From positions 310,001 to 374,000 of the forward strand of contig NW_027248375.1 in NCBI RefSeq assembly GCF_041260155.1: a DNA stretch of 64,000 bases, read 5' to 3'. Below the pieces are notes generated by a model. That model did no database searches, was not told the DNA's origin, and worked only from the letters and a program-made list of their open reading frames with translations. The position numbers and the translations under genes were made by a program. Below, in pieces: positions 26,905-61,371 of this stretch; position 1 is the stretch's first letter; each line of letters starts with the position of its first letter. Source of the stretch: Ptychodera flava. Taxonomy: Eukaryota; Hemichordata; Enteropneusta; Ptychoderidae.

Positions 26905-27111
26905 TCATTGCAATACAATTTCATTCATTTTGAGTAAATCTAGTAATTCTACAAATTCATCATCTTCTTCACCAGCATTGTCATGAGTAAAACGGTTGCC
27001 ACAGTTATCGCTCGCTTGGCAGGAACAAATGTTTGTGCAGGGAAGATTAATTTGACAGCAGATACAACTGATGGCATGTAATAAGAGAAAGCAACTCCAC
27101 ACATCGTTCAT
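26905..27111 (-). pseudogene. Cysteine-rich (CXC-like) gene fragment
   Basis: The 68-codon frame carries CICC, LPCTNICSC and DNCGN, followed by an acidic tail (GEEDDEF). This spacing resembles the CXC tail (CTELCQC) of the FEN1-like gene at 35180-40771 on the same strand. No upstream part of such a gene is recognisable here, so I read it as a stranded tail of another copy. Chance cysteine clustering is possible. Confidence 0.3.
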
Positions 27112-33463: not shown

Positions 33464-36400
33464 ATGGCTGACAAAATCAGGTAATATTGCGAATATTAAC
33501 TGTATTGCGAAATTTAACTATACAATGAAATCCTCGCTATTGAGATTCACGCTATAGCATATGCATATACAGCAAAAACGTTTCAGTAATTGCAAGTTCG
33601 CAAAGCAACCATTTTATCCGGGTGGCCACAGGGTTTAACATCCATGCTTTCATTCATCAAACGACGATAGCTGCGAATATTCAGTCATTCTCCTAAATGG
33701 ATTTATATCATGGAACCTGCTTACATCATCAAAATAGAAACATTGTATTTGATCTACGTTGCCATATCATGCATACTGTATATAGGCCTACTGCATGACT
33801 AATGCATTCCAACATGTAAAACCAGATCGGTCACTGTCATCAGTTGACCGAGAAATCGAAGGATTTGACAGAATTGTCCATTGTTTTACCTATCTGATCA
33901 AACAAGAGATCAGTGAACCTGTCTTGCAACAAAAGCTATAAGATATGTGTAACGTCGGACGGGTTTGTGAACAAACAAGAATAGTTATGGCACTGAAAGC
34001 GACAGTTGATGTTTCCATTTGCCTTGCCATAACAAACATGGCGGGTGGTCACTATGGCTACCAAACTGAAACACAAGCGTTGAGAACAATACGTGATAGC
34101 AAAATCAATGCTAGTACAGTAATTGTTGCCGACTAGTTATGATATTAATGTTTCCCTGGAAAGTGAAAATCAACGTAATGTTCACTAGCTGATATTGCTG
34201 TTATTTGCTTGTGAGGAAAAACAGGGAAATAGTTCCAATTGCACAATTGTTGTTGCAATTTCAATTGCGTTTATAGTCTGTGGGCCAAACCCTGAAAAGG
34301 GCTCTAGAAATAGCATTTCGTTGCATAGGGTCTTTGAGATACTTGGTATGAGCTTCAAATATTTGTTTATAGTGTGTGTATAAAGGAAAAAGATACTTAA
34401 CCCAATAGAATACGGTCACAAGGGAGATTTTTGACCAAAAAATATGCTTTTTCACATATTTTCTCTAAAACAAGGTAGATCCATGCAAGTGTGTTATCCT
34501 TCACATGTATTGATTTTTTTCTGAATGTTGTTTACTGGATATTAACAAAAAATTCTTGGAAATTTGAAATATTGACAAGAAATCAAAATTTTACCAATAA
34601 CTTGAAATTTCAGTGTTTTTTCCCAATTTGTAGATATCAGCACAGGTGCATTGCCTTTATCTCGATCACCAATATTTTGTACTGCAATATCAAATCTACT
34701 CACTGGCAATGTAAATCTAGACGACACAATATAGAATATTGTACCAAAAACTATTTATTTATAGGTTTTTACCCCAAAATTAAGATATATGTGCCAATGT
34801 ATTGTGTTCAATGTAACTGAAAGAGATATTTGAATTGTGTATTTAAAATTGTTGGCAAGTGATTTTCTTTTCAGAATTTTACACATAAACATGTAGTTTC
34901 GACCAAAAATTGATTTTCTTTCACAATTAAGATGGTCATGCCAATGCATTCTATGTGATGTTCATTGCTGGAGTTCCGTACCGGGTCTACAGAACTAAAA
35001 ATCAGTTCTTTTCCTGTGCAAAAAACATGAAATGCTCATTACTTTTTCTTATGACAATTCATTTCCTTTTCACTTGTCAGATAATGACCTTAGAATTTAA
35101 CCATGTAACCAGTTTACATTAATTGAGACAGTAAAATTAATATCAAATGTGGTTTTATTTTTCAAAGGCATCTATCAGTTCATTCATTGTCACTGTCAAT
35201 GTCTGAAGCGCTGTCATCTCCTGGTTCACTTTCCTCATCGTTCTGTGAGTTTGAACATGAAACACATTGACATAACTCTGTGCATAGCAGGTCCACCTCT
35301 CTACAAGAACATCTTGACGAGCATCCAGACTTTTTGCATTTACAGCTTACAAAATTGATGACAGAATCTGGTGCAGGGGGAAGTGTCATCCACTGGATTG
35401 ATACATCTGAGTCTTGCACTATCCATCCATGTCCATGTGGGCTTGGTGCATCCATTTTGGCCTGCAAACATCGCCTGTAAATTGCTGTTTGGTAGTTTGC
35501 ACGCTGTGTATGCAATTTCAGACTATCTCTGTTAGGAGGGAGGGCACCATCATTTTGTGAACCAAGACGAAAGCAATTGTATCTTGCTTCATTTACATCA
35601 CTGCACCTAATTTGGCCATACACATCACACACAAATGATTCTATTGTGTGAACAGTTCATCAGAAAGTATCCATGCTGCCCCAAGTTGTTGGAATGTACT
35701 TGTATAGTTATCATTGGCCAGCAACATATTTGCCATCTTCTTCTTGCCCTTGCCTTTGAAAGCACTTACACTGTCACAACCTGAGAATACATGAAGACCA
35801 ACAAGAGCTTCTGCAGTTCTGTCTCCCAATATCTCTACTACCTTGTTGATGTGTATTATCTGACCATTTTTGCTGGTTTGATGTAATATCAGCTGGCCTT
35901 GTAATTGATGTGCACAGCTCACGGCTAACATGAAGACATCTGTATCAGGACTGCGAATGACAATGTTGTCTACCTCCCCAACACGTGATGCATGTTGAGC
36001 ATGGAGTAGTAGTCTTGTGTCAGCCTCTTCATGGTCACACTGCAATTCTGGTATTTCAGTTACATCCATGACACCATTTGCTGAACGCAATCTGTAGCAA
36101 AGCTCACCCTTGGTAACATACATGGTGATACCCTGCAGGCACTCTGATTCATATTCTTTCCATGATTCAAACAGAAAGAATAGGAGAGATCCTTTATTCT
36201 TACCAGAGGCAAGGAACTTTTGTAATTGCCTTGGCATGTTCAGGGATGGACGTGTGATACGAATCTCATTGAAGGTACATGTACCAGTGGTGGCTCAACG
36301 TTTTCTTTCTGCATTCTTTATGGATGGTTCTCTGTACTGATCAATGACAAAGTCTATTCTTGTGGCGCCATACTTTGATGCGATTGCTCTCAACTGGTAA

Positions 36401-39400
36401 AATATGCTGGCTGCGAATTCTCCAAAAGTAGCTTGCACTTTACTTTGCATCTGTATTAAGGCCATGGCATCGACTAGAACAGCACTCTTTCCTTCGAGAT
36501 TATGGTCCACAACTGCATCTGGAAAGGTGGATTGAAGATGATGAGCCAGGACAGCCTTGTTTGTCTTCGTCATTGTTTCATCAAAGTTGGCTAACATTGC
36601 TGGGACATGGCCAAGGGGATAAGTCATGACCTCACGAAGATCTAGGTGACGCACCAGTGCAATAACCAGCATCCTCCGAAGAAGATTACGGTTTTCTTTC
36701 AGTGATAGCGAACTCATGGTGACTTTGGACTTTGCTTTCTTGGCAAGATCAGCGAAGGTCTTACCCCTCAGGACAGACATTTTGTCAAACAAATCTTTTG
36801 ATCCATGTGTTAAACGCTCCTTATTAAATTGTTGGTAAGCCTCTTCACCTTTGAAATATGCAGTGGTGAGGTCTGTTGTGATTTCTTCACCAGCCAATGT
36901 ACCAGCTGTAAGATGAACAAGCAGGTCATCACTATCACCAATAAATGGTGACCCCATCGACAGCAATGTTGATATCACCTCTTGTACATCAGATTCATCT
37001 CTCTTCATCCTGGCTTGTGTCAGGTCTTTGTGATCTGACTGCTTGTCTGTCTTACCAGCTTGGGTGAAGCAACCTGATGCAATAGCTGAACGTGCTGGAT
37101 GACTGAGAATCCATCGGTTGAGAGCACCTTTGTTTCGTGTGAAACCAACCAGTCCCCTTTTGTCTTTGACTCACGATTGAAAGTTTGTTCAATAATTTGA
37201 TCACATGGAGTCATTGAAAATGGATGGTCATCCGATCGCTGCACGGCAAACTCACCTTCACAAAATTTCTCATATACGTTTGGGTGTGTTTGAGGCAAAG
37301 CTGACATTTCTTGTAGATACACCGGAAGATAGCGTGAATAGTTAACTCTACCATACGCAAAGTACCATGGTAACATCTTTCTTAGTGTGGATAGATGTAA
37401 ATGCCAGTTACCCTCACGTGTTGCGCGAATGAAGAGGAGTAGAAGCTGTACCATTTCCAAATAGGAATTCCAGAAAGCATAATTGATGTTACTTTCACAG
37501 CACTTCTGTACATGGTCTGCGTATTCTGTTGTAATAGCTTAATATCTTCTGTCTCCACTCATCGATGAGCGAATTGGGGAAGCTTTCACGAAGTTGGATA
37601 AGGCTAGTGATCACTCTTAAATGTTACTCTTCAGTCACACTTTCAAGTAACTCATTGAAGTGGACACGGTGCATGGCCTCTGCAACCAGTTTATGGCAGC
37701 GAACACTTCTGTTGTAATGGTGGCCACTCATAACACCATTGGCAGAGCCTTGGGCTAAAATACCGGATTCTATCATTATATCTTCTAACCCAGCATCTCT
37801 GAAGCGCTTTCCTATTGTAGACAGAAATGACAGAGCTGTGTGAAACTCTCCAAGACGTAGAATTAGACGTTGTGTATACTCTTCATTCTGCCAGCGTATC
37901 TCTTGTGCTTTTGAGTAAATTGCTTGATCCATGGTGACAACAATACTTTGCAGGCTGAGCTTATTGGCGATGTCAACACTTCTGCTGAGTATTGTGTTTA
38001 CGGTAGACTTGTCTGTTGGACTGGCATCAATCACCGGCAGGTAACCAATTTTGCTGACAGGTGGGGTGACACTGCCTGACAGTTTCTGATTAAATCCAGT
38101 TCATGAGGGTAAAAACGTTGCACTCCTCTCCCTCAACCTAAAAAGTAAGAAATAAAAGTAACACACTATGACTGGGATGTTAAAACATAAAAAATTATTT
38201 ATTCATAGAACTTGACATGTTATCTGAAATACACAACATACAATGTATACTAACCTGCACTGTCTTGCATAACCAGAATGCCAAGTCTTTCTTCAATGGA
38301 ATTTTTTGTTCTCTGCCCTGATTCTGGAAAATTTCATCCACATTAAAGCCTACAGGTAGATTGAAAAATTAAGCTTTACTCTAGGGCAGTGTAACATTAT
38401 AGTGGCATAACAATATTGTCAAACTGCAACAATTCTTTCCAATATATATATAGTGCTGTTTATATAATGTTTGGGAAATGAAAATACAAATATCAGTGTA
38501 TTTCAGTAATATTATGTTGTTTAACACAGGGGAGATTTAATATGTAAATAAAGGGGATATTAACAGGATATAGGAGTATGGATGGGCATGTGTAAAATGT
38601 CTTTGTATTAATTGATTAAAAACCTTTTTTAATTGTTTAATGAAAGAAAGGGGTTTTAAAAACACATTTGATGTATAATATTGTGCATGTAAAACTTTGA
38701 GATGTAAATGAGTTGTGCATTTATTTGTGCTACTTACAACGATAATGTTTGACCGTGCCTGCATCGAAGACAATTAGTGACTGTGATGAGCATATAGTTC
38801 ATAATGTACAACCTGACAGTGCAGGGCCATGGCGTGGTCTGCCATGGTATTCAATAATATTGGTGGGTGGAACTTGAAGTGTCCTTTGCTTTGACTTGGT
38901 GACTGCTACTGATATCGAAGGGTTGCTGTCATTGTCATCTGTGTCATCTCCAAGATTTCTCTGAATTACAATTCCATTTGTATTGTGAGTTGTTCCTTTC
39001 CCTAAAACAGAAATTGTGTCAGAAGATGTTGTTTACACTAATGATCTACTTGGGAAAATAAAGACAACACCAACAGTAAAAGATTTTCAATTTCATAAAT
39101 AAATGCAGAACTCATGTGATATGTGAGACCTGAGTAATCAGCTGTACTTACCACTGAGTGTCTCTTCACCAAAATCATTATTATCCCATACCAATAATGT
39201 AAAGACTTCTTGACAAAAACCTGGTGGCAAACCATCACCATGGAGTTGTTGGATAGCTAGTGCTGTGTCATGCTCTAATACTTTAGAGTGTGAAACACAG
39301 TGCCCTAAACCATTGAGCAATCCTATCAATGATGAAGATCCAGTCACATGACGAACTGCCATACCAAGTGACAAGTGTTTAGGGGTGAGTTTCCGTCCTT

Positions 39401-42400
39401 GAGAAGACAAGAACATCATGTCCTAACAAATTGATAACAATTTGTTCTCAACATCAGCTTGGACATCAACACGATCTTGTGAGTGAAAGTCCTGTGATAG
39501 GCCAGTACACCATGCCAGGAAATTAAAAAGTTTGGTGGGTACAATATCTCTACTTCTTTGGATTGTTAGATCTTCTGCCCGAGGAGGCCATGCTGCAACA
39601 CCTTGAGCTTTCTCTAGAGTGGCATGAATATTCATGGCAGAGTGAATCATCTCAAGCATTTCATGCTGCTGACTGTTAGAGTGTGCTGCAAATGACTGTG
39701 ACTCTGCTTCATCTTCTTCGCTTTCAGAATCTGTATGAGTAATGTTCAGGATCCGGCCTCCTGAATCTGATTCTTTGTGAGCCATTACCAGTTCACATTT
39801 TTGCATGTGAGGTCGAAGAAATTGATTTTATCACCAAATCGTTGTTTGAGTCTTTTTTTTAAATACATGTTTTGTATGACGATGCATCAATATCTTCAAT
39901 GTCATTGATCATTTTAATGAAGATATTTTTCAACACGTTGATTGGAACAACTTCATCATTATCTATTAGTCTCCTCTGCACTACTTCATCACAAAATTTT
40001 TTGAAGGATGGTGCGTACATGATACCACTTTCTTCCTCTGTTTTCTTCTGGTATGAATAAGTGACACATCTGACATAACTTTGATAGCATGATTTGTGAT
40101 ACTTCACTTCAATACTGACCAAGTCTTGACCTCTCAACTGCAGTAGAAGTTTCTCGTCTTTCCTAAATTCGGCAGCTTAAGTAATGTACGTCCGTCGGTT
40201 TCACAGGCGACAAGTCTTTCATTTGACCTCTTTCTTGAAAAAGGGTCAACCCTTCGTTTCTCACCCTTGCATAATATACACATCGGTGGCAGTACGTGAA
40301 TACTTCTCCGCTTGGCTGACGAAATGGAACTTGAACTAGGGTTGACCTTAAGTATCGCTTTACAGGAGACACTTGTTGTTCACTCTCATCATTCAGTTCC
40401 GTCGGTTCACTTGTGGCAAGCGTTTTACGTAGCTTACCTTTCTCTCTGCGTTTCTCTGCCTGTGCCAGCCGACGTTTACCAGTGAAACGCTGATAGCACC
40501 CAAGGTGAAAGCCGGACTGATCTCGTGCTTCAGGATCCAACTGGAGTGCAATTTCCCGCTCCAAGCCATCAGAGCTTTTCCAAATCTCAGTGCATTCGAT
40601 TAATTTTGTCCAAGAGTGGTCAGTAAAAGCCTTGATTGGCTCGTCTTGTATGTCAGCGACGTGACACACACATTCCATGCTTGTGGAGGTGGCCATTTTG
40701 AAAGGATATGTATCGGACGACGTGATTGGCTCATTGATGCCTCCACCAATGAAAACGCTTGTTACCCACAAGCTTTAACGTCGATGATGACCTTGACACC
40801 TATTAGCATACATTATATATTTTTAACTTTTCCGCCAAATTTCACGCAATCGGACAAACTGATTTGGGTTAAGTATCGTTTTTCTATTTCTTTATGGTGG
40901 GAATTCATCATTTCAGTTGATTTGATTTAAACTTGAGTGTCCAGTGATCTTTTTGAAACGATAGCCCGGGTCGTCCCACAGACTATTACCCACGTTCCCT
41001 GCTTCTGGACTGTGGCTTGACAAAGACATACGTGCAACCACAGACAACAAAGATCTGGTCATTCTAGAATCCGAGGTTTTTACAATGTAACCACGATCGA
41101 TATTCCAATGAAGAGCATGCTTAACTTTGTAGAAAATATGTCGGGAGACATGTGCTTAGACACCTGAACCGACCATCGCAGGGTTTCAGGTACTATGACG
41201 GAGTACATGCTTTACTGAGCACAATATTTTACACCGATAATTGTTTCTCTGTCAGTGGGGTTAGAGATGCCACGCTCTATTTGGTCACAGTCTGTGTGTT
41301 TTTCAGAAGTCAGGTTGAGGCCTATACAGCAGGTGTGAGTCTAAAGCCGTAAAGTTTCATTGTCTGATATAGTTACGTTTTGAAAGGGTAGTTTCATTGT
41401 CTGATAAAGTTGCGTTTTGAAAGGGTGTGTGTATGATTGTAGAGTGTAAGGCATGGTCTGTTGCGGTTATTTTTTGTCCTGCCGTTTTTCAGTATTTGAA
41501 TTAAACTACAACTTGTGTTTTACACTCTTCAATATTTTATTCCCTTTCAAAATTCTCAAATGAAATGGATGCCAGTAGAAAATCATTTATAGGCAATCGG
41601 TTTACTCAGTAGCGGAGCTGCCTGCTGAATTTGGCGAATTCCCTACCAGTCTCCAGACGATAAAACACTCCCTTGTTTCGTCAAATGGTGGACATATAGC
41701 AAACTGTTCAGCTAAGTTGCTAGGTAATTACCTAATTTGGCGTACCGAATATATCCATCTGTACAGTACAGATCGCTGAGAGAAACAGTCAGTTCGGAAA
41801 CACATGCATGAAACTCTATCCATCGTATGCTAGCTTCGGGCATGATCGTGGAGTGTCCTCGGATGACATCTGTTCCGATTCGTTATTTAGAGCTCACAAA
41901 ATACGCACTGCAGTGTTGAGCGTATTGAGTTATATCTTCAGTCTCACAAGATTATCGTTTATACCGTGACTTTACAAGAAGGGTGACAACCCTCATTCCA
42001 CCTGAACTTCAACCAAAAAAGTAACAGTGAAACTGAGCAGCTGTAATCAACCAATTATCAGGAATTTCTTGGCACAAACGAATCAAAACATGATAAAATG
42101 GGAGCGTCATGCCATCGCTGTTATGCCATTGACATATTAGACGATAGCCAAGAACCTATAAATAGACTGAATCAAGAAATTAGGTAAGATTCCATCTTCG
42201 CTTTAATCTGACTAGACTGTAGGGGAGCCAAATGTGACATATTCATACGTTGAACATTCAATTTTGTACTGGAGATACCACGGTGATTTTTAGGTCAGTA
42301 AAACACATAAACAGAAGAAAAATAGCCGTGCACTGTAGGCGTAACCTTCGAATGAATTGTGACGCAAGCGAACTGTAATCTCTTTCCGAATCAAAAGTAT

Positions 42401-45400
42401 AATTTAAATAATGGCAAGAGTTCCAGTGCAGTATGTTTTCAATTACGTCACACTGATTTCTCCGACAGGGGACGGGGGTGGTGTCGGGGTTGGGTGGCAA
42501 AAGTGTTGTCAGTCACGTACAAGCCTCGAAACGGTTTGCGTGGCATGACTTGACTGTCTTTGCCACAGTCATCAATGTACGTATTGTACGTCAAGTGGGT
42601 TAAAAGCATTCTTTCCAGAGGCGATGTGGTTCACGGTTCAATGCACGCGACCCCGAACAAGAGCTTGTCTTGTATTGATTACTCTCCCGGCCTTTTAAGG
42701 CTTGTTACTCTCCAGGCAATAATCCCGATCTATTCATGTTTTTTTACTGTTGTTTGTGACTCGTAATTGGAGATCATGTTCTTTATTCAGACAAGTTTGG
42801 TTGTTGCCCTGGCTTCGTCATACACTGTTTGTCGACCACTGTTCAGTTGCGAATCCCCATACGTGTACAGTGCGTGTAAAGTAAAGTAAAGTAAAGTAAA
42901 GTAAGCGTTTATCGTAATCGTATCCCAGTTGGGATCTGATCATAAAATGCAATAAAGGTTTTACAAAATCAACCAATGCTTTATCTGTCCTTGAAAATAT
43001 GCTTATATAAGGTCTTGTGTGCCTCTGAATGCGTTTTCACAAATGTTTAGTTCACTGAGAAAATCATGTCTAATGTCTGTGTAGCCTTTTGCAATGAAAA
43101 AAGAGATGTATCTCATCTTCTACTTGTTTGTTTGGGTGTTTACCCATAATCACTCTTGTGTGATCATCGCGTTAACGCGCACTTCAGTCCGATAATAAAA
43201 TTGGAGGTATGCTATACTTTATATCAAGTTGATTTGTATGTCAGATTTTATCTCCTTGTGTGGGAATTTGCGCTGCATGTCGCAGATTCTTGCAAAATTT
43301 AAATATATAATTATTATTGTAAACGGGATTACATCACAGTAGAACGCAGTGCATCTCACCGAGATATTTGCCATCATTGACAAATGACATCTTGAAACTA
43401 GATAAACTCTTCAAAATTGCAGTCTTATGGAATCATCAGCACCGTCTCTGAATGTTCGTTTGTTTATCATCAACTCCCGCTAGGCCATCCAAGTAGTATC
43501 TCTACAATGTTTTCACCAGTTCGTAGTGAAAGGTTTCTTCTATTTTTTCAAGAAAGATATGATTTCGGGTTTGAAATGCCTTCATCCTAAGGGAAATTTT
43601 TCTCTTCACTTCAGGAAAGGTAACGATCAGGCTAGTATAGCTAGCATGGTACCAGACGTCATGGACCCGAAGCTGATACACAAGACGGTGCGGATTTTCC
43701 TCAGCTCAACATTTACCGACACCACACTGGATCGCAATATGCTGATGCAGCATGTATTTGAGCCAATACGAAACATGTGTCGGGAACACGGAATTGCATT
43801 TGAGGTGGTCGATTTAAGATGGGGTATGTAGATTTAATTAAAAGTACTGTAACAATCACAACCCCTCTGTCTGCTACTCTTAACCATTTTAATGTCATAT
43901 CTTTGGGCCATATTGAAAACAAAAATGCATTTAGTTGCGCCCTCTATAAGAGTGTTAGGTTGGTTTCATTCTTACAAACTATAGAAAGGGGCACGCACGA
44001 AAATCACAAAGCAAACTTGTCTGTCACTGCAAACTTTGTTTAAGTTATCATCCGCCTCGAAAGCGAAAGACATAAACTTTCGCTCAAACTTTTCTTCGTT
44101 ATTTCAACCATTCTCTTCAAAATCAAGGATAACTGTACTGTACACTGTATAAATTTTGGTACTGGAGAAACAAATTAACCAACATTGGGCGGCCAATATG
44201 AGAAATTTAAAATGGCCGCCGTTTCTGTACAAGTATAAGACTTATATATGGAGGAAATAAAATATTCGATTTTCAAAAACTAAGATGATGAAAAGTTTTC
44301 TTGCACCGAGAGCTTTAAAATGAACCCTCAAATGTTGTACATTAGAAAATTTTAAGATTTGTAAATGTTTGACAGTCTGAATATCTGTCCCTTAATATAT
44401 AGCACCTACCACAAGCATATAATATGACATGGACATCCAGCTTTATCATTACCAGTAAATGCCCAGTTCATCCATTGCCCAATTTTATGATCTTTCATAT
44501 TAGGTATACGACAAGAATCTACATCCGATCATCGTACTTTGAATATCTGCTTGGAAGAAGTGAGACGTTGCCAGGACGCCTCCCTTGGGATGGCTTTCAT
44601 TGCAATCCTCGGAGATAAGTATGGATGGAGACCGTTGCCTCCAATGATCCCGCACCAGGAATTCGAGACTCTCCTCAGCAATCTTGACGACGCGGAGAGT
44701 GAGTTGGTAAGAAACTGGTACCGTCGAGATGAAAATGCCTTAGAACCCTGCTATGTGCTGCAGCCCATCACTCAACAGTTCGATATCAACGCAGTTACCA
44801 AGGAAGCGAGTGACAAAGCATGGAATGAATGGTCGACCGTGGAACAGACAGTGTCAAGAGCTCTCAACGAAGCCATTGAGAAGGTAGAACTCCATGAGAA
44901 AGAGAAGAAAAAATATGTGACGTCAATCACAGAACGGGAAGTTGAAATTGGCATCATCGATGACCCCATGGCAGCAGAGCGTACTCTGGTTATCGACAGA
45001 AGAATCCAAGATATCGATAAAGAATCTGCAACTGCGAGGTTATATATTAATTTTAAGGTAGTTATCAAGAAGTTATGTAAATACGTCATTCGAAGATAAA
45101 ATAATACGTCAAAGAACTTGATTAAGTATCAGATGATAATTAACTGATGAATTATGAAATATCATTGCATATTTAAATTTGTCCGCGATATAAAGCAATT
45201 GACTACCGCCACTGTAATCAAATTACCTTGTATAAAAATGAATGAGCTATTAAAGTTACTTTATTAATCAACGGATACATTCATTACCAGGGCCAAGAGG
45301 CAGACGAAGAAAGCATTCAACTCATGCAGAAACTAAAAGAAGAGGAAATAGCGAAGAAACTTGGAACTGATCGATTCTTTCTGTTCAATGACTTGAAATG

Positions 45401-47128
45401 GAACCAAGCAGGATTGACCATGGAATCTCATGGTGATTACATCAAAGGTAATGAAATGTTTTGAACATAAACATTAGTAAAATAGTCAGTCTCATGATTT
45501 TTTTCGTGGCCTTTCGCTTTCAGCGAACCTTGCATACGCAAACTGTATGCTTTATCCATAGGCTGAAGATAATTCATGCAACAAACCATGAGAATTCAGT
45601 TTTCAAAGGCATTTTTGGGATTTGTGGGTTTGTCTGATAAAACCTTCGATCCAGTATTTCCTATTCATCTTAGAGTAGCTAACCTAGCAAAGAGAAGGTG
45701 CACATACTGTCAGCTTTTAAATGATGCAACGTTCAATCATTTAATAGACTACCTGGCCCAAATGACCGGCTGCACAGTCCTAGTAGAAACTCGTTTTAAC
45801 AGGTTACAGCGAACCGAGCAACAACAGAATTACACGTGTAGGTAAAACATGACATTTTGCTTTCTTAAAGAAATGTGCGAAAATGTGAAGTCCGTTCTGG
45901 TAAACAACCTGAAGGGAATCTTCCAACGACTAGGTCCTCTTGACATGTTAGAAGAAGAAGTTGCTCGCCATGCTCTCTTTTGCCGAGAGCACACCATCAA
46001 TTTCACCGGCAGGGGTAACATCCTATTGGCGATTCACAAGTACATCGATGGTGAAGATCCCATGATGCCCTTGGTCATCCATGGGGAATCGGGCGTCGGC
46101 AAGACTTCCCTTGTTGCCAAGGTTGTGTGTGATGTCCAAAACCGTTACCTTGGCTCAGACCTTGCGGCAATTTATCGCTTCTGCGGTACAACGGCAGACT
46201 CATCTACCGGCCGTGGTTTACTTCTCTCGCTGTGTCGACAAATCGGTCGTATTTACGGTGTTGACGAGGACACCATACCTGAGACCTACTCTGGACTGGT
46301 AGAAGAGTTCCTTAAGATATTAAGCAATGCGAGCAGAGATTTGCCGCTTTTCATTCTTATCGATTCTCTGGACCAATTGTCAGATGAGAATGGAGCCCGA
46401 AAATTCCTGGAATTTATACCCAGACGTATTCCGCGCTACGTACGGTTTATCGTAACTACCTTGCCAAAAGCTGGCGGATGCCTTGAGAGACTGAAAACAT
46501 TTGGACTTCCAAGGTCTCATTTTATAGAGGTAAGTTCAATGGTAATTGTTTTAAGTTATCCACATTTCCTTTATTGATTTTGATAAACAGGGCAGTCAAA
46601 CGAAACGTTATGTCTTAAATGTGGAAGGATTTCTTCAGTTGTGTTACGTAGAGTAAGCTTACTCATAAGATATTAGAGTTAAGTGCATTACGAAATCGCA
46701 GTTCATAAAATGGCATAGACGTCCATCGATTCTCTTGCAACACTTTAGCTCTTTGTGCATGACAGTAATAGAGATGTGTCGGAAATTTTTTTATCGATGC
46801 TTTGAAACAACATTCCATTATCGTTTTAGATCAAGAGACTGGAATCTTCTGATGGCCCGGCTATTTTAGATGCCCGGTTGAAATCGGTTGGTCGCACTTT
46901 GACAAGTGAACAACGTGACATTGTGTTATCAGCTTTCAACGCCTGTCCGTTACCTTTGTATCTGGAACTAGCATTTCAAAGATGCCGAGAATGGCCATCC
47001 TACAAGTAAGTCTGGTTCAGATCACGTCACGTGACTGTTTCATTAACAGTATTTAATATAATGGTATTGTCTCCCATTTGCTTTATGTACCGTATCGTGG
47101 GGGGGGGGGCAGTGTTAGCTTGTGTGCC

Positions 47129-47163
<35 letters not shown>

Positions 47164-50100
47164 GTCTATCTATCTATCTATCCATCTAATTTGTGCACGT
47201 GCGTGTATGCGTGCATGTATGCAGGTAAGTAGGTATTGCTGTCCACTTACAAAATTTCAGAACTACTTCACTGGTTGTTTAAGATGCTTGTGTCCAGCTT
47301 GCATGTGTAAGATTTGACAGATAGCAATTGCTCCCGATTTTTCAACTTTTCATATATGCTCAAACGGCGATCAGATTTGCACACGAAATCACCATCACTA
47401 GTTTTATTAGCCCTCGCGGACGAAGTCCGGCGGGGACTTATAGATTGGGTCCCGTCCGTGTGTCCGTCCGTCCGTCCGTCCGTCCGTCCGTCCGTCCGTC
47501 ATCAACAGTTTCTCAGACACTGCTGAACCAATTTTGTTCAAACTTGGCACAAAGGCATAGCACTATGACCTACAGATGCACATCGATTTATTTTGCGATA
47601 CGATCCAATATGGCCGCCAGACGGCCATTTTATTACAAATTTTTCATGTACGGAGCCATAACTCAGACAAGTTTCAACCGATTTTATTCAAAGTTGGTAC
47701 AAGGACATTGACCAATGTCATAGATATGCACGTCAATTTGTTTTGTGATATGATCCAATATGGCCGCCAGGCGGCCATTTTGTTTTGATTTTTTCATGTA
47801 CAGAGCCATAACTCAGGCATGTTTCAACCGATTTTATTCAAAGTTGGTATGAGGACAATGACCAATGTCATACATATGCACATTGATTTGTTTTGTGATA
47901 CGATCCAATATGGCCGCCAGGCGGCCATTTTGTTGTTTTTTTTCATATACAGAGCCATAACTCAGGCATATCTCAACCGATTTTATTCAAAGTTAGTACA
48001 AGGACATTGACCTATGTCATATATATGCATGTCGATTTGTTTTGTGATACGATCCAATATGGCCTCCAGGCAGCCATTTTATTACGATTTTTTTCATGTA
48101 CAGCGCCATAACTCAGACATGTTTCAACCGATTTTATTCAAAGTTGGTACAAGGACATTGACCAATATCATAGATATGCACGTCAATTTGTTTTGTGATA
48201 TGATCCAATATGGCTGCTGTGCAGCCATTTTGTTATGATTTTTTCGTGTACAGAGCCATAATTCAGGCATATCTCAACTGATTTTATTCAAAGTTGGTAC
48301 AAGGACATTGACCTATGTCATACATATACACATTGATTTGTTTTGTGATACTATCCAATATGGCCGCCTTGTGGCCGTTTTTCTTATGATTTTCAATGTC
48401 CTGAACCATAACTCAGACATGTATCAAGCAAATTTATTAAAAGTTGGTACAAGGACATGGTAGTATACATATGTACTTCGATATAAATATGTACTTTGAT
48501 TTGTTTCTCGATATGGTCCGATATGGCCACATGGTACGTGGCAATTTTGTTATGTTTTTTCATGTCAAGAGCCATAACTCTGGCAAGTCTCAACTGCATT
48601 AAACTTTATGAAATATGGCACCGGTGATAATCTATTAGTGTTAGGATAGTATGAAAAAATGTTTGGCAACATCCTGTCAACTAATTCCCAGTTGACTCAT
48701 TTAATGACCTTTAGGATAGTGGCCTACATTGGTTTTATGTTTTTCATCACCATGGAACTCATTCTTGGCCATTGAGTGCCATCTGTATCAAAGTATTTTT
48801 ATCACAGGACCTGTAATCAAAGTACCCATTAGCAAGCGGGGACTGTGTCATCAACGATGACTTGTTATAATTCAGTTAAAACATCTTCTAAAACCATGCG
48901 GACAATCGCTTTCAATCTTTACAGATTATTCCTACCCACACAACAATCCTAATTCTACTTTCACAGTGACCTCTACTTTTTACTGTCTTTCTAGGGATTT
49001 GGAAGAATGCAAACTTGAGGCTGACATTCCTGGTTTGATAAATGCTTTCTATGAATCATTAGAGCACTACCACGGGAAGCTACTTGTGCAACGTGTATTG
49101 GGTTTGCTGGCTGTATCCAGTGAAGGCATCAATCCAGATGAATTTCTCGACATTCTTAGTTGTGATGATGAGCTGTTAGATGACGTGTTGGAATGGCATA
49201 CGCCACCACAGAGGAGGCTGCCCCCACTGTTGCTAGCTCGACTGCGCCATGATCTTGGGAATTTTTTGGTTCAAAGAGGAGCACAGGGCGTCATATTAGT
49301 CTCCCTTTATCATAGGCAGTTCTGGGAGGTTGCACAAGACCGTTATCTCAGTAGCGAAAGATGGAAGGCCACGTTTCTCACACTTGGGAAATACTTTTCT
49401 TTACAGTTTGGCAAAGATCGCGCAATTTCAGCACAGCCTCTAGCATATGGTTTGAAGGCCCTGAACATGCGTAAATAAGTCAGCTGGCCTCTTCGTTTTT
49501 CAATACCAGACTGAGAGAGTACAAACAACTTCGTGACATCCTATGTGATCTGAGTTCGTGCAAGCAAAGTGCATGGCAGGTATGGCGTACGACCTACTGT
49601 CTGAATGTAGCAAGGGCGTTGCCAAAGTGCATGCAGCAAAACATCAAGATGAAGTGGTCGATGACGGTGTTATTCAGACTTGGAAGATATGCTAGGGTTC
49701 CTTCGTCGGGAAACACACATCATCAGCAAGGAGCCATTGCTTACATATCAGCAGATGCAGAATGCACCAGTTGGTACAGCAACTGAGAGGGCAGCAAATA
49801 GATGGAGAGAGCAAGTTAGGGGTGCTACTCTGGAAGACCATATCCCAGTCCCTCCTGCATGGATTGAATTCATCAACAAACCATCAGAAACTGAAACCTA
49901 CAAACAAAAACTAAGTGGACATCAGAAAACAGTCCTCTCCGTTACATTCTCCAATGATGGCGATGTCATATATTCAGCTTCTGCTGATTGCACAGTCAGA
50001 GCCTGGGACAGACACACTGGGGATTTGAAAGGTCAACTTGAAGGTCATAATGGTGCAGTCACTTGTGTTCGATATTCACCTTCATCAAGCAATCAGTGTA

Positions 50101-51981
50101 TTGCCACAGCCTCAGGCGATAAGAGCATCCATATATGGAGTCCTAGAACATACCAACTTGAACGAGTAATCGAAAATGCGCATGAGCAGTGGATTAACTG
50201 CATTGCATTTTCTCCAAAGGGTGATAAATTGGTCTCTTCTTCCCTGGATAAGCAGATCAAGATATGGGAGGTTGAATCGGGAAAAGAGGTTGCTACCCTA
50301 AGCGGTCATGAGGGTCACACAGTTTTCTGTGATTGGTCACCAGTCGACGAAAATCAAATTGCCACATGTGGTGACAACTTAGAACTGTTCATATGGGACG
50401 TTAACGAGAAATCTGTCCAATGCAAACTCACTGGACACGAAATTAAGGATAACGTCAACTTCCCTGCCTCTGATCGTCTTGAGGGTCATAAAGTAATCGA
50501 TTATAAGTCGGCTATTTGGTGTGTCAGATTCTCCCACAATGGCAAGATGTTGGCATCAGCAGCGGTCGATTCAAATGCAGTTGTCTACCAAAGCAATACT
50601 GGTGACATTATTGCCACTTTCGGTCTTCCAAATGACGCCTCTGCAGTCGCCTTCTCACCCGATGATAAAATACTTGTCGCAAGTTCTTCAAGTCACATGT
50701 CTGTCCACCTGTACCATATCGAGAAGAAGGAAACCCTAGCATTACTTGGTGGTCACTCTGGCTGGGTAATGGATGTTGCTTTTTCACCAGATTCCAAATT
50801 GATTGCTTCAGTATCAGATGATAAGTCTGTTAGAGTGTGGGATGCTATGGCAGCTGAGAAACTAAGTACGATGCGGTTTCACTCCGAAAGATGTTGGAGT
50901 GTGTCATACTCACCCGATGGAAAATGGTTGGCATCTGCATCAGATGACTTCAAGGTATGGCCAGACAAAGATATTATACCAAATGCACTGAGCATTGCTT
51001 GCCAACCTATTGCTCTATATGTGTATGATGATGATGCGTACTGCTTTGAGTAGGAGGAAGCAGACCTAGTATGGTTGATGTAAGTTTGTTGAAATGATAA
51101 TATTGTGATCGAGAACAGAAAATTCAATAATTAATTTATTGAGTATAACATGAAGTATTTTCCCATTCATCTCAGGTATGCATTTGGAACACGGAAACAT
51201 TCAAACCAGCGATCATCTACGAGGGCCACGACAAGAAACGTACCTTTTTGTGTGGAGTCCGTGCATGCACCATTTCAGGCAATGGTGAATTGGTCGCGAG
51301 TGGAGGTGACGATCTTACAATCCGGGTCTGGACCAGAGACGAAGGAGAAACCAAGAGCGTAATTCGATGTGATCCGTTCTTACCATGGTGTCTACGGTTC
51401 TCAAAAGATGACAAGAGAATCATTGCAGTCGGAGAGTTCTCACAGTCCGTACAAGTATGGGACTGGGAAAACCAAAGTAAATTAATGGAGTTGGGTGGCT
51501 TTGATAGATTCTGTCAGTACACCGAGGTTTCTCCCGATGGAGAGAAAATACTCGGGTCTTCTATTGACGACACTGCTCGTATATACAATGCTGTTGATGG
51601 AACCCTACTCCATACTATTGAACAACCAGACTGGATCACTTGTGCCTCCTTCTCTCACGATGGCAAACTCTTGGTAACTTGCTCTAGAGACTTGTTGGTT
51701 CGAATCTGGGACACTGAAACCAACAAAGTCACTTGTGAGTTACCAGGCCATGAGTCAGAGGTACGGATAGTCTGTTTCTCCCCGATGACAGATATGTAGC
51801 ATCAGCTGCTCTAGACCAAAGTGTACGAATCTGGGATATTGAGAAGCAAGAGCAGGTACACGTGTTCCACACAGTGTCCGGAGTCTGGGCACTGGCATGG
51901 AACCCAAAACATGCTAACCTACTTGCTGCTGGTGACGCTGTGGGATATGTGTACTTCTTGCGGATCAATAAAACCCAGTAG
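33464..51981 (+). CDS. NACHT and WD40-repeat protein (NWD1/TEP1-like), frame broken near the end
   Basis: Exons: 33464-33480, 43615-43823, 44504-45057, 45291-45447, 45871-46529, 46830-47005, 48995-50954, 51176-51981; all introns GT-AG with matching phase, about 1,500 residues. Order: short start (MADKIR, split codon joined to exon 2), DUF4062-like domain (VRIFLSSTFTDTT, VVDLRWGI, ILGDKYGW), NACHT ATPase with Walker A GESGVGKTS and Walker B-like LFILIDSLDQL, a helical/winged-helix part, then 14 WD40 repeats, enough for two seven-blade propellers, starting LSGHQKTV (about 49913). Proteins of this kind (NWD1, NWD2, TEP1) are cytosolic NTPase scaffolds, some NLR-like. Odd: the frame changes three times between about 49479 and 49690, and once at a C run at 51780-51783 (one C short). 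Splice sites and other exons are clean, so this is a young pseudogene or has base errors. Confidence 0.85.
34273..40986 (-). mobile_element. Possible full extent of the FEN1-like gene unit
   Basis: The 12-base phrase ATAGTCTGTGGG at 34273-34284 is repeated as its exact complement, CCCACAGACTAT, at 40975-40986, bracketing the minus-strand FEN1-like gene on both sides. TA lies next to each. A 12-base match within about 1 kb of each side can arise by chance at the few-percent level and the match decays at once, so this is only a candidate boundary. Confidence 0.25.
35180..40771 (-). pseudogene. Multicopy FEN1/XPG-like nuclease gene with CXC tail, broken copy
   Basis: Four exon blocks with splice signals: 40771-39152, 39001-38813 (donor weak), 38349-38255, 38137-35180. 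Parts in order: Cys/His-rich N-terminus (CHRCVYYARV; KYHKSCYQSY); middle module (MDQAIYSKA, RLGEFHTALSFL, SGHHYNRSVR; NYSRYLPVYLQEM); FEN1-like nuclease (VLVDAMALIQ; FVIDQYREPSIKNAERKR; HEEADTRLLLH; SPDTDVFML; FSGCDSVSAFKGKGKKK); CXC tail (CKCKKSGC, CTELCQC) and acidic end. The nuclease motifs align with FEN1's seven metal-binding acids (IDASM, VFDGKPP, EAEA, EDMD, GSDY). Frame is interrupted about half a dozen times, so this copy is dead or nearly so. The family is widespread in marine invertebrates as uncharacterised proteins (from memory). Function unknown; possibly a transposon-like gene. It lies antisense in intron 1 of the NACHT-WD40 gene. Confidence 0.75.
41356..41428 (+). repeat. Tandem duplication, period about 40 bp
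   Basis: GTTTCATTGTCTGATAxAGTTxCGTTTTGAAAGGGT occurs twice back to back with two base differences (unit below 20-base limit when split at x). Confidence 0.85.
42879..42904. repeat. (AAAGT)n microsatellite
   Basis: About five GTAAA units in intron 1 of the NACHT-WD40 gene. Confidence 0.9.
47131..47187. repeat. (TATC)n microsatellite
   Basis: CTAT run with a few substitutions in intron 6 of the NACHT-WD40 gene, preceded by a ten-base G run. Confidence 0.95.
47407..48866 (+). mobile_element. Helentron/pearl-like non-autonomous element
   Basis: Head TAGCCCTCGCGGACGAAGTC with a CGGAC/GTCCG stem-loop, then a (CCGT)n run (47452-47500), then about seven diverged tandem units of roughly 147 bp (each with TTTCAACCGATTTTATTC, AAAGTTGGTACAAGGACATT, GATCCAATATGGCCGCC and GAGCCATAACTCAG), then a tail with GCAAGCGGGGACTG and a stem-loop GTCATC-AAC-GATGAC (48847-48861) followed by TTGTTA. 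Microsatellite plus ~150-bp tandem core plus 3' hairpin is the plan of mollusc pearl and fly DINE-1 elements, which are Helentron-related; that class is inference. Located wholly in intron 6 of the NACHT-WD40 gene. Confidence 0.65.
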
Positions 51982-57119: not shown

Positions 57120-58210
57120 TAGTTTATTTGATTATGTATAATGAACTTTTGTTATTAGTGACATAACTCTGAAATTCCTGCACCAAACTTAATAATACGT
57201 GCAAAAAATATTGATCTGCTATACATCTAATTATACTTTGAAGCATTGGGCAGTGTCAAGTTGATAAATAGCTCATTTGCATATTTTATGAAGTTTTATA
57301 ATTAGTCATATAACACCGAAATAACTGCAGTGTGAAGTTAACAAATAGCTCATTTGCATATTTTATGTAGTTTTGTAATTAGTCATATTACTCCGAAATA
57401 AGTGCATCAACTTTGATGAAATCTGTTGCAGATACTGATCCGACTAAATGTGGTGTAAAGCATTTAGTAGTGTGAAGTTAATTAAGGGTTTATTTGCATA
57501 TTTAACGAACTTTGTAATTAGCGATATTACTCCAAATTACAGCGTCAAATTTAATGAAACTTGCTACAGATGTTGTCCTCATAGACATCTTATTGTACTG
57601 AGAAGCATTGAGCAGGTGCAAGTTAATAAATAGCTCATTTGCATATTTTATGAAGTTTTGTAATTAGTCATGTAACTCCGAAATAACCGCACTATATTTG
57701 ATGAAAACTGCTGCAGATACTGATCTGACTGATATCTAACTGTGGTGTAAAGCATTAAGTAGTGTAAAGTTAATTAAGGGTCCATTTGCATATTTAATGA
57801 ACTTTGTAATTAGGTATATAACTCCGAAATTACGGCTTTCAATTCAGTGAAATCTGGTACAGATATTGATGTGATAAATATCTAATTGTACTGCGAAGCA
57901 TGGGGCAGTGAAAAGTTAACAAATAGCTCATTTGCATATTTTATGAAGTTTTGTAATTAGTAATATTGCTCCAAAGTTACAACATTAAATTTAGTGAAAG
58001 AGGCTATAAATGTTGATCTGATGGATATCTCATTGTCCATGAAGCATTGAGCAGTGTCAGATACTGATGTATACAGTGTCAAGTTAATTAACAGCTCATT
58101 TCCATATTAAATAAAATTTTGTAATTAGTTATTAAACTCTTAGGGTACTGTACGAAGTTGATGAAACCTGCTACATCTAGTGATATAACAGATATCTGAT
58201 TGCTCTGTGA
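57120..58210 (+). repeat. ~146-bp-period repeat array, copy C
   Basis: About seven diverged units, each with TAGCTCATTTGCATATTTTA, AAGTTTTGTAATTAGTCATA, AACTCCGAAAT, ATGAAA-CTGCTACAGAT and GAAGCATTGAGCAGTG. Unit starts near 57271, 57348, 57487, 57633, 57779, 57926 and 58093 give spacings of mostly 139-147 bp. The same family lies inverted at 60330-61371. Confidence 0.8.
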
Positions 58211-58948
58211 AGCGAACGACTATTGATGAACCTGTTGTAAAACACGTGAGCATATTCAATTCAAATATTATGTCTGTATGTCACCAAGGCGTTTGTCTTT
58301 GTTTTGTGTCAAGTTAACAAAGAATTATTTTCAGCCTATGCTTATTAAGATTAAGTAAATAGACCCGCACATTTAAATGAAATTCTTTGAATAAATTCCC
58401 CTTGTGTATTTTGTCGGCAGGGATCTCATTCCGTGTGCCATGGTGTAGCTCAAGACAGTAAGTGCGATTATATTTCTTAAAAAACTTCGAGAGAAGGCAT
58501 GGGGCTATTGATGAAAGGTTGTATTAGCAAAACAGAACCATGTTTTCATATGCAAAGGTACAGCGGATTCATCTGCCGGTCAGTTTTCACCACTTCTATG
58601 TAAAAATGGTATCCTACAATACATGTTGTTGGTTGTACATTCTGAAAATACAGAGGGCGTCTTCACTGGGTGCTTGACTTGAATTAGTGTCATTTACAAG
58701 TAGACGTAAGTCGTTGATTCATATATATCTCCGTGATCCAACTCTTTATAACCGGGCAGGTAAACGCGTTTGCCCAGGCAAAGGGATGCCAGATATCTAC
58801 TCGTAAATTTTCTGACAAATATCATACGTCTACATACGTCACATTTTCTCTCAGAAATGCAGTCTAATAATGGTGCGGGCGTCATGAAATAACGCCTTTT
58901 TGAAGTTCGTTTGGGTGTCATTGGGTATCAGAAACTAATTGAATATTT

Positions 58949-59493
58949 CTTAAAAATTATCTACTGTTGATTGACCAATCACAGTGCTCAATTCAGGGTG
59001 TTTTTTTACTCATAAAGCCTTGGTCACCAAATTCCAGAAACGAATGCCAGTGCCGTAGTAAAGTACAGTCCAATCAAAAGTGAACATGTCATATTCTGTA
59101 GACATCTGGTACGTTTTAATATTCAAATTTGGTAACACAGCGGAAACCAGCTGCAACACAAAATCTGCTGTGCCCTAGGGCATTTATATAATGTGCCCTA
59201 GGGCATTTATAGGATGTTCCGTTACATTGGAAGGCTATTTCACAAATAAAAGTTTTAATTCATATCCTAAACATGTTACATTGACAAAGGGGACGGTTGA
59301 CGTAAACACATTGAAAACGAAAATATATCAGTTAGGGGCGATAGTTTTTAAGTCGAATAAAACCCTCGTACTCGGGCTCTTCTGGTATATAAAGTCCAAC
59401 CCTACGATAAAATGTCTCGGCCTGCGGCCTCGACATTTTATCATTGGTTTGGACTTTATATACCAGAAGAGCCCTTGTACTCAGGCTTTATCC
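58949..59493 (-). mobile_element. 545-bp foldback element, copy 3 (inverted)
   Basis: The reverse complement of copy 1 at 10031-10575, at the same 545-bp length and with only scattered differences: arm (CAAATTTGGTAACACAGCGG), double GCCCTAGGGCA, spacer, then the 138-bp palindrome ending GGCTTTATCC. Gapless equal length over 545 bp, 48 kb apart, supports a mobile element rather than local duplication. Confidence 0.85.
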
Positions 59494-59557
59494 TATACTT
59501 ATTATATCATACCAGTATATTGATGGTGCAAATACAGCTATCTGATTGGTCGAGACG

Positions 59558-59585
59558 CGAAAAGAACCGTGGTATATTGGCGATA
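59558..59585. repeat. Short hairpin CCGTGGTATA/TATACCACGG
   Basis: Stem CCGTGGTATATTGG-CGATATACCACGG with a few unpaired bases at the loop, just before the longer palindrome at 59672; both contain GGTATA phrases. Confidence 0.7.
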
Positions 59586-59671
59586 TACCACGGCTGGCAT
59601 GCGCGCTAGCTCTCAGCTTGAGGAAAATTCCTTTTATGACATTCAACGCCAGAATTTCAATATACTGTTAT

Positions 59672-59830
59672 GATATAATAGCAATAAATCACACCCAGCA
59701 ATGGTATACCACTCGATTTTGACCAGTTCACTTCATATATGCACTCGCTATCGCTCGTGCATATATGTCGTGAACTGGTCAAAATCTTGTGGTATACCGT
59801 CGCTGGGTGTGCTTTATTGCTTATTTTATC
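59672..59830. mobile_element. ~159-bp palindromic element
   Basis: Arms GATATAATAGCAATAAATCACACCC... and, in reverse complement, GATAAAATAAGCAATAAAGC..., continuing through GGTATACCACTCGATTTTGA and TGACCAGTTCAC to a CGCTATCGC-type loop. A few mismatches. A hairpin-type MITE like those at 10580 and 26312 but unrelated in sequence. Confidence 0.75.
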
Positions 59831-60329
59831 GGCAATAGCACTATGCACTTAAAGGCACAACAGCTACAAATTTTATGTATTATTTTGAAACCAAGTCAGT
59901 TCGTGTAAATATGCTAACTGAAGGACATGTGTAGAAGTATTACTGCTTGCTGATTCAAGTTGGACCATGATGTCGACACGTTTTAACAGTTAAATTAACT
60001 AGATATGAACTGAATGTGCTCACGTATTTTACAACAGGTTCATTAATAGTAGTACGCTTCGTATAATTGTTGGCTATCAAGTAAGACCTCAGGATAATCA
60101 CTAAGTAAAACACAAGGACAATTACAGACATTGTATATTCTGACAGTAGTTCAATTGAGCACACGATGCGGAGTGTAAGACAGATTTCTGATTAGACAAG
60201 ACGTGTATACGGTCTACTGCCAGAGTAACTATCTGTGACGAGAATTTATTGTATTAAGGTTTTCAATATTTCTGTCAATAAACCCCATTCATACCAATAT
60301 AATCGACACCCGTGTGAGGCGTGAAATAA

Positions 60330-61371
60330 AAAAATCAGATATCTGTTATATCATTATGTGTAGCAGGTTTCATCAACTTTATTATAAAACTTTATTCAAT
60401 ATGTAAGTGCGATAATTATTAATGTGACACGCCCATGCTTCTCAGTACAATAAAATATTTATCAATCAATATCTGTAGCAAGTTTCATCAAATGTTATGC
60501 TGTAATTTTGGAGTAATATTGCTAATTAAAAAAGTAATTAATATGCAAATGAACCTTAATTAACGTGACATAGGTAATGCTTTAAAGAACAATTAGATAT
60601 CTGCCAGATCAGTATCTGCAAAATATTTCATCACATTTGGTGCAATTATTTCGGAGTTATATGACTATTACAAAAACTTCATAAAATATGCAGATGAGCT
60701 ATTGGTTAACTTGACACTGTCAAACGTTTGTCAGTACAATGAGATATTTATCAGATCAATATTTGTACCAGATTTCACTGACTTGGGCAATGTAATGTCA
60801 GAGATATAAACCTAATTACAAAGTTCATTAAATATGCAAATAAACCCTTAATTAACTTTACATTAAATATGCAAATAAACCCTTAATTAACTTTACACTA
60901 CTAATTGCTTTACACCACACTTAGATATCAGTCGGATCAGTATTTGCAGCAGATTTCATCAATTTTGTGCAGTTATTTGGAGTTATATAAAATATGCAAA
61001 TGAGCTATTTATAACTTTGCACTGCCCAATGCTTCTAAGTATAATTAGATATATATCAGATCAATATTTGTTGCACGTATCATCAAGTTTGGTGCAGGAA
61101 TTTCAGAGTTATGTCACTAATAACAAAATTTCATTAAATATGCAAATGAGCAGATAATTGACATGACACTCACAGTATCATCATAATGTTCTGAGATTGT
61201 CATCTGTGAAAAGTTTCATGAAATGTTGCACGTTATTGCTTGATATATGTCTACACAGTCATTATCGTCTGCATAGGGAAACCATTGTACGGAAAAAATG
61301 ATATTGCATTACTTCATTAATATGCAAGCCACACTAACCAAAATCGCTATGACATTAGCCCACGTGAGCTA
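60330..61371 (-). mobile_element. ~146-bp-period repeat element, copy B with head
   Basis: Read on the minus strand it begins TAGCTCACGTGGGCTAATGT at 61371, continues CATAGCGATTTTGGTTAGTG, GGCTTGCATATTAATGAAGT and then the ~146-bp units (same order as 57120-58210) to about 60330. A 33-bp stretch (AAATAAACCCTTAATTAACT) is locally duplicated near 60838-60900. The head matches the plus-strand copy starting at 63693, which carries microsatellite in place of a gap here. Confidence 0.75.

Follow-up and report, generated by a model that had tools for sequence, protein, structure and literature searches.

Does an animal gene that encodes both a nuclease resembling FEN1 and a cysteine-rich CXC tail belong to its host, or to something that moves? 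The question is raised by a minus-strand gene in a 64-kb stretch of the Ptychodera flava genome (contig NW_027248375.1, positions 310,001 to 374,000, 64,000 nucleotides; hereafter the window), which an earlier interpretation made from the letters alone (the sequence-only reading) had placed at 35180..40771 as an uncharacterised multicopy gene. The feature is wider than that, and we read 34274-40985, with a probability of roughly 0.7, as the decayed copy of a cut-and-paste DNA transposon that was once autonomous and belonged, most likely, to the AcademX lineage of the Academ superfamily. On this reading the former uncharacterised gene, present in one copy in the window, becomes a bounded transposon with ends, a target duplication and an order of domains. 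The inverted ends, the TTA duplication, the transposase-like region and the broken state of the copy were all absent from the earlier account.

The flanks of the gene give the limits of the element. The word TAGTCTGTGGG stands at both extremes in inverted orientation (allowing one mismatch, the 64 kb hold only these two sites, both exact), a longer subterminal pair lies inside it, both pairs are collinear around the gene, and TTA adjoins the element on either side. None of 100 shuffles reached the score of the flank-to-flank repeat match. The inverted orientation around the gene, the TTA at both ends and the flank-to-flank repeat, taken in combination, delimit an element of 6,712 bp, whose borders are as follows.

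34274..40985, minus-strand gene: the complete element, 6,712 bp, delimited by inverted ends with TTA outside both
34271..34273, no strand: TTA, left copy of a putative 3-bp target-site duplication, from the sequence
40986..40988, no strand: TTA, right copy of the putative 3-bp target-site duplication, from the sequence
34274..34284, plus strand: left terminal inverted repeat TAGTCTGTGGG, at the gene's downstream end, with a similar terminus at 176 in the relative described below
40975..40985, minus strand: right terminal inverted repeat TAGTCTGTGGG, 11/11 bases inverted
34384..34405, plus strand: left subterminal inverted repeat of 22 nt, with 91% complementarity to 40864..40885
40864..40885, minus strand: right subterminal inverted repeat, pairing with 34384..34405

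A relative with an unbroken frame came from a search of prokaryote genome contigs with the pattern GCD....F.GKGK, which yielded 15 loci, one of them (L013) related to the gene in the window. This locus is JAJRVU010000273.1, a contig of 6,512 bp filed as a metagenome-assembled genome (MAG) of the Planctomycetota. Its gene is a single open frame of 1466 amino acids, still open at the 5' end, where the start is lacking, and the protein aligns with pieces of the window between 40158 and 35189, with 175 of 444 aligned residues identical over the linker and nuclease and 55% identity in a 142-column alignment of the transposase-like core. Past the 3' end of this gene lies TAGGCAGTGGGCCGAAACCC, aligned with 53 bases of the element's left end; one end is on the contig. 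In the 3' part of the contig, none of 300 shuffled ends attained the score of this terminus, and a plain word search of the contig with two mismatches stayed at chance level. Because only its own genome among 392 planctomycete genomes contained a match, we infer that the relative is a mis-binned animal contig, a probable binning error that left a eukaryotic transposon in a public MAG record; other genome sets gave 0/395, 0/398 and 0/4, and an empty result in a set without any positive carries no weight. Among viral contigs, searches for related loci pointed to 9, 1, 50 and 20 stretches, of which not one was confirmed as a relative; four patterns hit 8, 1, 4 and 5 loci, and tblastn identified no relative among them. 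Three records in a phage collection, at E=0.6, were taken as chance.

Open reading frames (ORFs) in the ORF list of the window run as a series on the minus strand from 40774 to 35180. ORFs 37170-36295 and 36294-35641 form a single frame cut by an in-frame stop at 36297-36295, and the joined frame 37170-35641 contains VDAM, VIDQ, HEEAD, PDTD and GCDSVSAFKGKGKK. The two parts said to flank the nuclease are likewise present: the CXC cysteine cluster forms the end of ORF 35656-35180 (Pfam TCR, E=2e-4, 22.0 bits, below the cut-off of 23.5), and Cys/His-rich modules can be read by eye in ORFs 40774-40163 and 40176-39859, for which a Pfam search gave no family above cut-off. The copy in the window is dead. 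Stop codons interrupt it in frame at 39425-39423, 38103-38101, 37626-37624 and 36297-36295, the second in a stretch that matches the relative weakly, and its frame breaks at, for example, ORFs 37538-37020/37170-36295 and 36294-35641/35656-35180, so that it can no longer encode the whole protein. From the N-terminal end, the parts of the gene, all on the minus strand, are these.

40163..40696, minus: N-terminal Cys/His-rich module in an ORF, with a candidate ATG at 40696; the relative ends before the corresponding part
39859..40176, minus: second Cys/His-rich module (YHKSCYQSY) in an ORF, 36% identity to the relative
39152..39827, minus: start of the transposase-like region, with a candidate first D at 39185 and the in-frame stop 39425-39423
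39002..39151, minus: 150-bp GT-AG intron that preserves the phase; at the corresponding point the frame of the relative continues without interruption
37525..38112, minus: transposase-like core, with a candidate second D at 37929 and the in-frame stops 38103-38101 and 37626-37624; 46% identity to the relative
37155..37538, minus: end of the transposase-like core, with a candidate E at 37190 and frame breaks on both sides; 52% identity to the relative
35641..37170, minus: linker and FEN/5'-nuclease-like domain in one frame, with the in-frame stop 36297-36295
35180..35656, minus: C-terminal region with the CXC tail, in a frame that differs from the nuclease's; 41% identity to the relative

Elsewhere in the window, at 26959-27066 on the minus strand, a further cysteine tail of CXC-like type occurs, CICCQINLPCTNICSCQASDNCGNRF, which matches the relative at E=0.085 and whose surrounding frames are without the rest of the gene; it is possibly a remnant of another element's tail.

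The sequence-only reading had found FEN1-type motifs at 37008-35641 on the minus strand and had counted seven evenly spaced metal-binding acids. The acids are there, in order, both in the window and in the relative, but evenly spaced is a loose description: their intervals are 43,105,2,25,2,55 in the window and 53,72,2,19,2,49 in Methanocaldococcus jannaschii FEN1 (M. jannaschii), with the same spacing within the E-x-(E/D) and D-x-D pairs. Eight acids, the seven and the extra E of HEEAD, were compared with the relative, an unbroken homologue in which their loss would have spoken against a nuclease, and all eight are identical, as against 15 of the 31 D/E residues of the window core (P=8e-4). 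That 8/8 acids are kept at 175/444 identity suggests selection on the metal site.

Profile comparisons bear on the same likeness. Our query profile held two proteins, those of the window and the relative, and the exonuclease profile was built from 24 of 30 fetched loci, six having failed the motif filter. Against the 24 bacterial Pol I-type 5'-3' exonuclease domains the query scored 31.3 (E=0.0012, 97 columns), and against a joint profile of archaeal FEN1 and the exonucleases it scored 36.5 (E=2.2e-4, 101 columns, motifs in register), these E-values holding for single comparisons. The alignment pairs HEEADT with E-A-D, PDTD with D-x-D, and GCD..GKGK with GxD..GxG. Column shuffles gave at most 24.4 for the exonuclease profile (n=100) and 21.8 for the joint profile (n=60), with 0/60 reaching the joint score. 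Two-sequence profiles of other regions of the protein scored no higher than 20.9 (the part before the nuclease, E=0.026, taken as noise), and single-sequence slices of the relative reached 18.6 outside the nuclease and 22.1 inside it. A classical PIN profile of all 30 sequences gave 11.3, which is no match, and a badly cut alignment with 18 of the 30 did not match either. As a positive control, FEN1 compared with the exonucleases reached 108.5. At the level of sequence profiles, then, the domain is kin to FEN and the 5'-3' exonucleases, and the comparisons lend statistical support to the presence of a FEN/5'-nuclease domain in a protein that is transposase-like in another part.

Upstream of its nuclease the relative weakly matches Pfam DUF6589 (E=0.003, or 4.7e-4 for one genome), and the part of the relative that does so is the part that matches 37525..38112 of the window. 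From acids common to both proteins one can select a D-D-E set (VWDNND, VTMDQAIY and DQIIEQTFN, at 39185, 37929 and 37190 of the window), which makes a candidate catalytic triad. The transposase-like part had been missed in the sequence-only reading, and the nuclease was therefore taken as the enzyme that mobilises a selfish gene. The gene does look like part of a mobile element, given the inverted ends and TTA. A transposase-like region precedes the nuclease, and the anatomy of the protein suggests an accessory module.

A transposon of this composition would not be without precedent. Kojima reportedly described the AcademX nuclease in 2020 as being of the XPG type. Academ DNA transposons (Kapitonov and Jurka 2010, as cited in PMC4455052) are placed, in a passage of PMC9587614, among the superfamilies with a DDD/E transposase, and a passage of PMC10294476 gives 100 curated Academ elements in a bivalve-centred library, with a mean length of 5,565 bp. 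According to passages of PMC10045372, the AcademX lineage (Kojima 2020, as cited there) encodes a nuclease and makes 3- or 4-bp duplications, and AcademH has a helicase and 9- or 10-bp duplications. The present element has a nuclease-like domain beside a transposase-like region, a putative 3-bp TTA duplication in its one copy and terminal inverted repeats, and we favour AcademX because the inverted ends, the 3-bp duplication, the size and the presence of the nuclease in the same protein agree. Passages from the literature searched contained no description of an Academ XPG nuclease, and AcademX occurred in one of the papers; all the same, the earlier suggestion that the type was undescribed as nuclease-bearing is not borne out, an AcademX nuclease being in print in that part of PMC10045372. 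The element is probably an inactive newcomer within an already recorded transposon type, an animal element with a transposase and a FEN1-related domain in one protein.

Several observations weigh against this interpretation, beginning with the nuclease. Pfam and PDB sequence searches returned no FEN/XPG match, nor any XPG_I-type Pfam family at E up to 10, and we therefore term the domain a distant homologue and not a member of the Pfam XPG family. Against archaeal FEN1 alone the score is a borderline 22.2, with one of 60 column shuffles higher (22.3), and the two-sequence AlphaFold model (mean predicted local distance difference test score, pLDDT, 33.9; predicted template-modelling score, pTM, 0.27) is too low for a statement on the fold. 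Such results would be the best support for an accidental FEN resemblance, with similar motifs set in a different fold; we consider this very improbable, however, in that the scores of 31.3 and 36.5 exceed their shuffle maxima, the second-half motifs are all in register, and both the rest of the same protein and the classical PIN profile fall below. Archaeal FEN1 itself, used as a query, finds nothing in the phage collection at E<=0.01, which indicates that single-sequence searches are insensitive for the FEN/XPG superfamily. In the first half of the nuclease, VDAM is in register with IDGM, yet the match is not significant (E=0.17). A domain whose first half has diverged so far, and whose activity is a prediction from sequence, might be a non-catalytic, DNA-binding relic that places the transposase at bends or flaps in the DNA, but the retention of 8/8 acids in proteins that share 175/444 residues makes this quite unlikely.

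The borders and the classification have weak points of their own. Two or more TAGTCTGTGGG matches at one mismatch or fewer arose in 14 of 100 shuffles, so the word alone is not decisive; the 3-bp TTA duplication is that of one copy, with its border picked among a few, and is weak; and across all of the relative, on both strands, 5/300 shuffled ends scored as high as its terminus. The presence of at least one intron would suit an immobile gene, either the host's own or one domesticated from a transposon, an explanation we think highly improbable in view of the inverted ends with TTA on both sides, the similar terminus in the relative and the broken frame. A more serious competitor, although still unlikely, is a DNA transposon from a different or unnamed superfamily, with a FEN-like nuclease of its own, which resembles AcademX in its working but is not a member. 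In its favour, the DUF6589 match in the relative is below cut-off (16.8/27 bits), the window's own pieces do not match DUF6589 at E up to 1, and the literature searched contained no paper linking DUF6589 to Academ; the AcademX filing, moreover, rests on features set against published descriptions and is probable, not proven. Against it, a nuclease together with a 3-bp duplication is the feature pair printed for AcademX in the passages of PMC10045372, and the size fits that given in PMC10294476.

As an AcademX element, the intact transposon would have carried a single minus-strand gene with at least one intron, encoding a long protein of Cys/His-rich modules, a DDE/D-type core, a FEN/XPG-like 5'-nuclease and a CXC tail. 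The Cys-rich parts and the CXC tail would bind the transposon ends, the DDE core would cut and join the 3' strand, and, as the element is excised or a gap is processed, the FEN-like domain would nick or trim the second strand or a flap, the insertion leaving a 3-bp duplication at the target. A bolder version, offered tentatively and with considerable doubt, is that one chain holds two nucleases, one per strand at the ends, the DDE core acting on the 3' strand and the FEN-like domain on the 5' strand, and that swapping one accessory enzyme for another, the nuclease of AcademX or the helicase of AcademH, determines both how excision proceeds chemically and how long the duplication is. In Tn7, TnsB and TnsA share the strand work, and we know of no transposon with a demonstrated FEN-assisted cut-and-paste mechanism, a point at which no literature search was aimed. 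What use a flap-type nuclease would be to a cut-and-paste transposon is a question that the unbroken frame of the relative, which lacks only its start, makes testable.

The surroundings of the element contain features of other kinds. About 2.5 kb away, at 43484-51799 on the plus strand, long frames in which WD40-like repeats and a P-loop-like stretch can be read by eye probably represent a host gene of the NACHT/WD-repeat type. One repeat occurs at 10027-10883, 12150-12763 and 58949-59523, in both orientations and with up to 96.5% identity, probably as a non-autonomous or fragmentary family, and direct and inverted repeat arrays of about 68-93% identity occupy 47512-48596 and 57122-61170.

Compared with known systems, the protein resembles several of them in part. 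With Tesmin/TSO1 CXC proteins it shares one CXC-type cysteine cluster, although its TCR domain is below the Pfam cut-off (22.0/23.5 bits in the window, 10 bits in the relative), and host CXC proteins usually carry two clusters where there is one here. With FEN1/XPG/EXO1 and the bacterial Pol I 5'-3' exonuclease it has in common the seven metal-site acids, the D-x-D and a GxD followed by GxG, and its E-A-D is that of the bacterial 5'-3' exonucleases; it departs from FEN1/XPG/EXO1 in having 105 residues between the second and third acid (72 in M. jannaschii FEN1), in sharing a chain with a CXC tail and a transposase-like region, and in being too diverged for Pfam or PDB sequence matches. AcademH is in print as the sister lineage of AcademX with a different accessory enzyme; it differs in its printed helicase and 9-10-bp duplications, and our Pfam searches matched no helicase family. 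With AcademX itself the likeness is drawn from descriptions and the window copy is dead, but the two agree in a nuclease encoded with the transposase, a 3-bp duplication (3 or 4 in print), inverted ends and a length of several kilobases.

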